Shown here piece by piece: positions 1 through 19,846 of a DNA stretch of 35,908 nucleotides. Each line of letters opens with the position of its first letter. Positions within the stretch are counted from its first letter, which is position 1. The notes beneath the pieces were generated by a model that saw nothing but the letters and a program-made list of their open reading frames with translations, searched no databases and had not been told where the DNA came from. A program made the translations under genes and the position numbers. The stretch comes from Planctomycetota bacterium (GTDB taxonomy: Bacteria; Planctomycetota; Planctomycetia; Planctomycetales; Planctomycetaceae). Location of the stretch: assembly GCA_003671275.1 (NCBI GenBank), contig QWPB01000073.1, positions 1 through 35,908 of the forward strand, read 5' to 3'.

Positions 1-582
1 AATTCCACCTTCGCGGTTCGGCCCCCCCATCACGTAACCCACAATGGCCCGCTGGGCGACTTCACTGACCGCCAACCCCTTGGTCCCTTCAAAGAAGTCA
101 GTCTTGGGAGGCAGTGCGACCGGCTTGGGCGTGTGTCCCAATCCCGGATGGGCCCCCACTTCGGTTTGCCACGTTCCCTCAGCCTGAAGCAGGATCGTCT
201 CCGCATCGTCCCAGCGGATTTGGACTGTCCGCTCTTCCGCCGTCCCGGGTTCCGAATCCTTCTCCATCGCCGGGGCATCCCCCGGAGCTTCGAACGGATT
301 ATCGCTTGGAGCGGACTCCTTGAACGGGTTGTCTTCCATCGAGGCGACGTAATCCTGATCGGCCTGACTAAGCTTCGACAGTTCAATCTCCACTGTTTTT
401 CCGGTCTTCTGCTTCAGCTTGACCTTGGTTCCCGTCGTGCTGAGGAAGGTGGCCTCGATCTTGTACTTGCCGCTGGCGTCGCTCCATTCGCGAAGTTCTT
501 CCGCAGCGTGCAATGGTAAGGTCCACCCGAGAAGACCACAGAGCAGGCAGCCCCAGACGCAGATGGTGAGCAGTCGAGACAT
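1..582 (-). CDS. SHD1-domain exported protein, 3' end outside window (partial)
   Basis: The frame is open from an ATG at 580-582 to the window edge, giving 194 codons with no stop, so the C-terminus is missing. A strong Shine-Dalgarno (GAGGAGG on the minus strand) lies just upstream of the ATG and fixes the start. Residues 1-27 look like a Sec signal peptide (hydrophobic 5-21, then LPLHA-A). Residues 31-84 match the SHD1 (SLA1 homology domain 1) pattern, starting REWSD and ending in DQDYVASM. About 30 of 57 aligned residues are identical, without gaps, to the protein encoded at 17990-19846. Two NPF tripeptides follow (residues 85-87 and 95-97), then an acidic Pro/Glu-rich linker and a region of unknown fold. 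In yeast Sla1, SHD1 binds NPFxD peptides. The bacterial role is unknown, and an extracytoplasmic location is inferred from the signal peptide. Confidence 0.85.
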   Translation of the reverse strand, partial: MSRLLTICVWGCLLCGLLGWTLPLHAAEELREWSDASGKYKIEATFLSTTGTKVKLKQKTGKTVEIELSKLSQADQDYVASMEDNPFKESAPSDNPFEAPGDAPAMEKDSEPGTAEERTVQIRWDDAETILLQAEGTWQTEVGAHPGLGHTPKPVALPPKTDFFEGTKGLAVSEVAQRAIVGYVMGGPNREGGI

Positions 583-17989: not shown

Positions 17990-19846
17990 ATGATGCGAGC
18001 GGGATTGTGGGCTTGTCTGCTGTGTTTGATCTGCTGCCTGGAAGCCGCAGCACAGTCGGAGATGCGGGAGTGGTCCGATAAGTCGGGCAAGTTCAAAATA
18101 CAGGGCAAATTCGTGGCCCTTGTCGACGGCAAGGTGACTCTTACCAAGCCCGATGGCAAGAAGCTGGAGATTGCTCTCGACAAGCTGTCGGACAACGACC
18201 GGAAGTACGTCGAGGGGATGAATGACAATCCGTTTGAAGCGGGGGCCGCGTCCCCCAGTGACAATCCGTTTGAATCCGGAGCCCAGCTACCTCCCAGGGG
18301 CAAAAAGAAGGGCGATGCCTGGATGGCTCCCGATTTTGCCAAGTTACGAAAAGTGGCGGGACTGACTAAGAAGGACAAAAACGTCTGGCAGATGGTTCCC
18401 GTGCCGCGAGAGGAGGAACTGGCAGCGAGCGTCGAGCTTCCCAAGTTCAGTTTCCACGAGCGCGTCAGTGGATCGGCCATGTCGCCCAATGGCCACTGGA
18501 TGGCATTGTCCGTCAATGACCCCTTTGCGGGTTCACGCATCCATCTCGTGAGCCTGAAGGAGGGGCAGCAGGTGGCCTCGGTGGAGATTCCAAAGCCTGA
18601 AGACCACAAGGCGATACGGCCTCTATTGCTGGCGGTCAGCCCCGACGGCAAATACATCGTCACGGGCAGCGACCATAACGCCTGGGATCGGGCTGGAGCG
18701 ATGAAGACGAAGCTGTGGACCGTTGTGGGAACGGAATTGAAACCCTCCATGGAGTGGGCTCCGTTTGACACCGGATCGACGGAGTGGCACCAGCAGGACA
18801 AATCGCGCGTGACGTGGGGTGCCTTTACTGACCCCAAACGGTTGTTATTGCAAGCCGATGGCTATGTCGTTTCATGGGACATCACCACTGGGAAATCCCA
18901 ATATCAGGCGGGACTGAACGCCGACATGATTAAGTTCACGCCCGATGGGAAGTACGCATTGGCCGCCAGTCGGACCACGGTCGGAGTGATGGACATCACG
19001 GCGGGCAAGATCCTGTTTTACCGGGACATTAACGCTTCCGGTTCGGTGGATTTGAGTCCCGATGGAACACAGATGCTGGTCCATGGCGGAGAAAATATTG
19101 AAATCCTGGATGTGGCCACAGGAGTCTCGAAAAAACAGATCAAGGTTGAACAGCAGGGCCAATCGTTCTGGGCCGGCAACCATCATATCCTGGTGGGTGA
19201 GCACGCCTTACTGGATGTGGAAGAAGAATTCGTCTCCTGGAACTACACCGGACAAAAGGCCACGTACACGGCGGGTGGCAAAATCTGGTTTCTAGGTACC
19301 GATGACGAGAAAGCCGTACTGCGGGCCGAGAGTCTGCCGCACGCGGCTGCCCTTTCGAAGATCGAAGAAGCCAAACGTGATCCGGCCTTCTTCCTGCTTC
19401 AGCCCGGTTCCGCTGTGAACGTTGACGTGCAGGTGCCCGCTGATGGGGAGGCGATTAAGGCGACCTTGATTGCCAAAATCAACGGGGCCGGATTCAAGTA
19501 CGACCCGGCTGCGGCACTCACCTTTGTCGCGACGAAGACCACCGGCCCTTCCGAAGAAATCTCGGTGCGCGACTTCGGCAGCTTTGGAACGGGCGAGAAG
19601 TTCACCTTCACGCCGCAGATTGTCTCGCTGGATCTGATGGAGTCGGGAAAGTCCGTCTGGCAGCGAGCCCGCCGAGGCTATGTGCCGGGGATCTTTGATA
19701 TCCGACAAGGCGAAACGAAACAAACGGCCCTGCTGAGGTATCAGGATCCCGGAATGAGCTTGTTCGAAAATGTCACATTTCCGAAATTCATCGTCCGCCC
19801 CGGCAAAGCCGGGGAGACGACAATCACGACGGAACCGCTGGATTGA
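17990..19846 (+). CDS. SHD1-domain exported protein with propeller-like repeats
   Basis: This 618-residue protein has a signal peptide (1-21, hydrophobic with CLLCLICC, then EAAAQ). An SHD1 domain follows (26-78: REWSD at the start, DRKYVEGM at the end), then two NPF tripeptides (80-82 and 92-94) in an Ala/Ser/Pro linker. From about 150 to 470 there are beta-propeller-like units with SPDGKY, TPDGKY and SPDGTQ motifs and WDI/MDI/LDV strand ends, resembling degenerate WD40 blades. The C-terminal part (about 470-618) has no recognised domain. GAAAGG about eight bases upstream supports the ATG pair at 17990/17993. The SHD1 segment is about 30/57 identical to the partial protein at the left edge. 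It is convergent with ppa, with 18 bp between stops. The function is unknown; an extracytoplasmic binding or scaffold role is inferred. Confidence 0.85.
   Translation: MMRAGLWACLLCLICCLEAAAQSEMREWSDKSGKFKIQGKFVALVDGKVTLTKPDGKKLEIALDKLSDNDRKYVEGMNDNPFEAGAASPSDNPFESGAQLPPRGKKKGDAWMAPDFAKLRKVAGLTKKDKNVWQMVPVPREEELAASVELPKFSFHERVSGSAMSPNGHWMALSVNDPFAGSRIHLVSLKEGQQVASVEIPKPEDHKAIRPLLLAVSPDGKYIVTGSDHNAWDRAGAMKTKLWTVVGTELKPSMEWAPFDTGSTEWHQQDKSRVTWGAFTDPKRLLLQADGYVVSWDITTGKSQYQAGLNADMIKFTPDGKYALAASRTTVGVMDITAGKILFYRDINASGSVDLSPDGTQMLVHGGENIEILDVATGVSKKQIKVEQQGQSFWAGNHHILVGEHALLDVEEEFVSWNYTGQKATYTAGGKIWFLGTDDEKAVLRAESLPHAAALSKIEEAKRDPAFFLLQPGSAVNVDVQVPADGEAIKATLIAKINGAGFKYDPAAALTFVATKTTGPSEEISVRDFGSFGTGEKFTFTPQIVSLDLMESGKSVWQRARRGYVPGIFDIRQGETKQTALLRYQDPGMSLFENVTFPKFIVRPGKAGETTITTEPLD

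Follow-up and report, generated by a model that had tools for sequence, protein, structure and literature searches.

Tandem NPF motifs beside planctomycete SHD1 domains suggest that a reader is carried together with its ligand

Based on translation, Pfam profiles, AlphaFold2 models and comparison of SHD1 proteins, we report that two proteins encoded by a 35,908-nucleotide stretch of a Planctomycetota genome (contig QWPB01000073.1; hereafter the window) carry an SHD1 domain followed directly by two NPF motifs, and that the occurrence of NPF next to SHD1 is not chance. The comparison supports an association of SHD1 with NPF, and the arrangement, as read from the sequences, suggests that the reader comes with a ligand of its own. 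This conserved combination of reader and tag provides a concrete candidate ligand for bacterial SHD1, and is relevant to the question of whether NPF reading by the domain is older than fungal endocytosis or moved between bacteria and fungi.

Results

The main SHD1 protein of the window (618 residues, 17990..19846, forward strand), delineated from its open reading frame, Pfam, an AlphaFold2 model and structure comparison, consists of a putative Sec signal peptide (called by inspection alone), SHD1, two NPF motifs, a WD40-type beta-propeller and a C-terminal alpha/beta domain, in that order. Its SHD1 domain (PF03983, residues 20-78, 18047..18223) scores 60.5 bits and that of the second protein 52.5 bits, as compared to the curated Pfam cut-off of 23.7 bits. 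Yeast Sla1 SHD1 (PDB 2HBP) is the sole solved relative found by sequence (E 7.9e-10) and the only Foldseek match with E <= 0.001 for a model of SHD1 plus tail (E 3.1e-5, rmsd 1.2 over 55 columns, 42% identity), placing the domain in the Sla1-type SH3-like alpha+beta fold. These comparisons show that the window domains are true SHD1 domains, the same domain as yeast Sla1 SHD1 by both sequence and fold. The two motifs, identified by translation and by a pattern search of the genome, both read DNPFE (residues 80-82, 18227..18235, and residues 92-94, 18263..18271) and lie in a linker (residues 79-110, 18224..18319) that is predicted to be disordered (pLDDT < 50). The propeller (18365..19333) is assigned to the WD40 or G-beta kind by structure comparison (best Z 21.6 over 268 residues), the matches being to G-beta chains at Z about 21 over 268 residues, with a WD40 sequence match that is under the Pfam cut-off. 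SHD1 and WD40-type matches are all that Pfam returned for this protein, with no SH3 domains and no further Sla1 architecture.

The second SHD1 protein, defined by an open reading frame and Pfam, is encoded on the reverse strand (1..582) and is cut by the window edge after 194 residues. Here SHD1 (residues 27-83, 334..504) is followed by DNPFK (NPF at residues 85-87, 322..330) and DNPFE (NPF at residues 95-97, 292..300), found by the same translation and pattern search. Translation and Pfam thus bear out the earlier note, which had described two NPF motifs after SHD1 in both window proteins in the context DNPF(E/K), and all residue numbers it gave are correct. A third SHD1 paralog of the same genome, located outside the window (L002), has a single SPF at the equivalent place and no NPF. 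In the whole 5.03-Mb genome, a pattern search for NPF pairs 12-41 bases apart yields three cases, i.e. both SHD1 genes and one out-of-frame match, so that in-frame tandem NPF is confined to the two SHD1 proteins; on this ground, the idea that the genome encodes a dedicated NPF partner was rejected. DNPF[EK] is encoded seven times in that genome, four of them in the two SHD1 genes, and of the other three matches, judged by eye, one lies in what is probably an untranslated leader, one in a protein resembling a Zn-peptidase and one in a questionable reading frame.

The comparison drew on SHD1 proteins of the order and of the phylum, together with those of a neighbouring family and of named genome contigs. 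In the first sample (174 SHD1 domains, 168 tails), with the 30 residues after SHD1 scored, NPF is the top tripeptide, present in 45 of the 168 tails as opposed to 0.8 expected from shuffled tails. It remains so after clustering of the domains at 65% identity (27 of 131 versus 0.5 expected), ranks first among tripeptides at every clustering level, and is 74 times denser in SHD1 tails than in the remainder of the same proteins. When both 30-residue flanks of the domain are considered, NPF is found at 67 of 258 domains (shuffled flanks: mean 1.4, maximum 6) and [NSD]PF at 93 of 258 (mean 6.2, maximum 15); the enrichment over shuffled sequence on which the proposal of the earlier note depended is therefore present. 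Disorder-like SHD1 flanks contain NPF in 56 and [NSD]PF in 82 of 272 cases, as compared to 0 and 5, respectively, of 527 disorder-like 30-residue windows from neighbouring SHD1-less genes, a small control set drawn from gene neighbourhoods rather than whole proteomes.

The consensus beside SHD1 is [D/E]-[N>D,S]-P-F-[K/E/A/Q]. The residue before PF in the flanks is N in 83, D in 30 and S in 27 cases and any other at most twice, with T at 0 despite making up 5.9% of the flanks, and NP is followed by F in 83 cases and never by Y or W. An acid (D or E) directly precedes 91 of 140 motifs (65%, versus 12% expected), and tandem copies are 8 residues apart in 29 of 42 cases. D at F+2 or F+3 occurs in 6 of 140 motifs, less than the roughly 10% expected, and the bacterial motifs accordingly lack the acid 2-3 residues past F of the yeast NPFx(1,2)D ligand. 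According to a review of fungal endocytosis, signals that depend on SHD1 in yeast comprise NPFx(1,2)D, which is read by Sla1 via this domain, and the less effective DPFxD, NPF and DPF (PMC7889276). As these weaker signals include DPF and plain NPF, the N/D degeneracy of the bacterial motif fits yeast recognition by analogy, whereas the position of the acid does not.

Nearly all motif cases stem from two unrelated Planctomycetota families, which have SHD1 alone in common. Family a, to which both window proteins belong, combines SHD1, a tandem motif and a beta-propeller, and carries the motif at 67 of 77 domains, nearly always after SHD1. In family b, SHD1 is located at or near the C-terminus and the motif is present in 20 of 22; the long N-terminal part has no Pfam match above its cut-off and no detected propeller. 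The motif of family b is upstream of SHD1 in 11 cases and downstream in 13, some having both, and is often formed by the final residues of the protein (NPFKLD, NPFEP, NPFE). On a tree built from sequence outside SHD1 and its flanks, in which some branches are weak, the side changes at least four times, with nearness to SHD1 kept. One additional architecture (L011) ends in NPFIKN. The remaining SHD1 architectures (PQQ-like, multi-SHD1 and others) have almost no motif, and the Verrucomicrobiota SHD1 domains are without it except for DPF in 1 of 19. The association is hence not universal and has few independent origins, since two gene families supply nearly all cases: the pairing put forward earlier stands for these families, but does not extend to bacterial SHD1 overall, where many architectures lack NPF. 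Within the domain itself, the columns are similar overall to the yeast sequence, and at no alignment column was a clear residue found that distinguishes SHD1s with a nearby motif from those without.

Among 22 aligned family a homologs that are 23-29% identical to the window protein, the motif proline P62 is unchanged throughout, and F63 and P74 show conservation of at least 90% (model numbering, in which the linker spans residues 60-91), while the linker is elsewhere unalignable. In the full-length AlphaFold2 model (23 sequences) the linker has pLDDT < 50 and is not docked, and in the SHD1-plus-tail model (54 sequences) the tail is without secondary structure and likewise not docked; in the latter, pLDDT is under 50 at residues 64-71 and 77-79 and slightly higher at DNPFE (72-76), a difference too small to weigh. 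Docking of the motif on the SHD1 of the same molecule was thus seen in neither model, and as the linker is disordered in them no stable same-molecule complex is predicted. The autoinhibition by its own NPF tail that had been envisaged for the protein is consequently not supported, both models leaving the linker undocked at low confidence, and the head-to-tail polymers that the earlier note named as the other outcome are conjectural. Being single-chain, the models are informative on docking within one molecule and not on binding between molecules.

Tandem NPF is also found in proteins of the order that lack SHD1. Two exported propeller proteins lacking the domain (L286 from G005 and L297 from G004) have two or three N-terminal NPF repeats right behind the signal peptide, and membrane-anchored helical-repeat proteins (L288-L293) have tandem NPF in the linkers between repeats, e.g. 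NPFGNPGANPFDG. L290-L293 come from G063, G017, G059 and G011, respectively, and no SHD1 was found in the genomes of L290 and L292. The genomes of L286, L297 and L287 contain SHD1 too. L287, a lipoprotein-like protein of G082, has five NPF and one SPF inside about 90 residues, and G082 additionally encodes an SHD1 protein with NPF upstream of the domain (L090). The relative of L286 and L297 in the window's genome (L302) has NPYS only, with no NPF in the N-terminal 170 residues. A propeller of this kind was rejected as a dedicated partner: the repeats were seen in two related genomes (L286, L297), and among the other relatives with a readable N-terminus, that of the window's own genome included, none has them. 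The SHD1-less carriers could represent extra ligands, or be a sign of another NPF reader.

Discussion

We propose, with about even confidence, that the NPF copies are short linear motifs kept beside SHD1 as ligands of this domain, mostly between exported molecules. By analogy to the yeast relative, and in line with the statistics, bacterial SHD1 would bind [DE][NDS]PF, with the DNPFEAGAASPSDNPFESG peptide as a putative ligand. Each chain would then combine a single reader with as many as two tags, spaced by about 8 residues, and binding would probably occur mostly between molecules, i.e. own copies and paralogs, a mode favoured because AlphaFold2 shows no same-molecule complex, although single-chain models speak only to docking within one molecule. 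In this manner, exported propeller proteins may cluster on, or exchange with, other tagged periplasmic proteins, and weak same-molecule binding could compete, serving as a switch.

The main rival to SHD1 as reader is that [NDS]PF is recognized by something else, either the protein's own propeller or a distinct partner in the periplasm, with SHD1 being a neighbour that has a different job. We regard this as rather unlikely, but it draws on several observations, namely the NPF repeats of the SHD1-less exported propellers L286 and L297, the tandem NPF of the helical-repeat membrane proteins L290 and L292 in genomes without detected SHD1, and the lack of a clear difference between SHD1 sequences with and without an adjoining motif. 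It does not readily explain why two families with nothing but this domain in common, of which family b has no detected propeller, both have the motif next to SHD1, be it before or after, nor why the nearest ortholog of the SHD1-less propellers in the window's genome is without NPF (N-terminal 170 residues). That the tag stays beside the reader while switching sides speaks for SHD1 as reader rather than for a fixed structural role of the motif.

The same behaviour bears on two further explanations. N, D and S, like T, serve well as helix N-caps, and proline is favoured beside N, D and S. Rather than a ligand, [NDS]PF could in principle be a structural element, capping a helix or forming a turn at the end of SHD1 or the start of the next segment, in keeping with these preferences and with the position of the first motif, often just 4-10 residues past the last SHD1 helix. 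We consider this improbable, as T never precedes PF (0 at 5.9% background) and F does not vary, as the motif occurs upstream, downstream, in tandem and at the very C-terminus, and as the AlphaFold2 models give the motif region no structure. Even less probable is that the motif is a functionless inherited spacer, retained by chance in two old gene families: nearly all cases do come from two families, but P and F are retained while identity in the remainder of linker and protein has dropped to about 25%, and the motif switches side yet stays near SHD1.

Extending the proposal of SHD1 as reader, planctomycetes may possess a short-linear-motif network outside the cytoplasm, in which SHD1 reads [DE][NDS]PF on SHD1 proteins and on a small number of other exported proteins, with reversible multivalent assemblies as the outcome; we put this forward tentatively, as a possibility with the balance somewhat against it. 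Short linear motif recognition is regarded as chiefly a eukaryotic device. If the network exists, planctomycetes would use outside the cytoplasm a module whose recognition role is otherwise known from endocytosis in fungi.

The window proteins and their relatives share with yeast Sla1, an endocytic adaptor (2HBP), the domain itself and an N-P-F core that tolerates D at the first position. They differ from it in being bacterial and putatively exported, in having reader and tag on one chain, in the acid, which precedes the bacterial motif and follows the yeast one by 2-3 residues, and in having no detected SH3 domains or other Sla1 parts. Other NPF readers, i.e. EH domains, POLE2 and Sec23/24 (PMC12808100), likewise consist of a folded domain that reads NPF in a disordered stretch, but these are eukaryotic, intracellular and unrelated, and that paper does not describe reader and motif packaged together. 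Secreted bacterial proteins that join SHD1 or chromo-like SH3-fold domains to WD40-like propellers, an architecture shared with the window protein, have already been noted (Sci Rep 2018, PMC5906684); in the passages retrieved from that paper SHD1 is mentioned once, and neither NPF nor any ligand appears. The pairing of SHD1 and WD40 is thus known, while no mention of its coupling with [DE][NDS]PF tags turned up in the literature searched. That search, with most subscription journals outside its scope, returned nothing on NPF in planctomycetes or on bacterial SHD1 ligands.

SHD1 itself is widespread: of 150 genomes sampled within the order, 81 have it. Proteins ending in SHD1, without NPF, are also encoded on contigs filed as viral in IMG/VR (L169-L174), and up to five consecutive SHD1 domains with no adjoining NPF are found in L040, L041 and L042. 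In a neighbouring family of the class the domain is heavily multiplied, with 15 to 23 matches per genome in many architectures (G449, G477, G444, G457).
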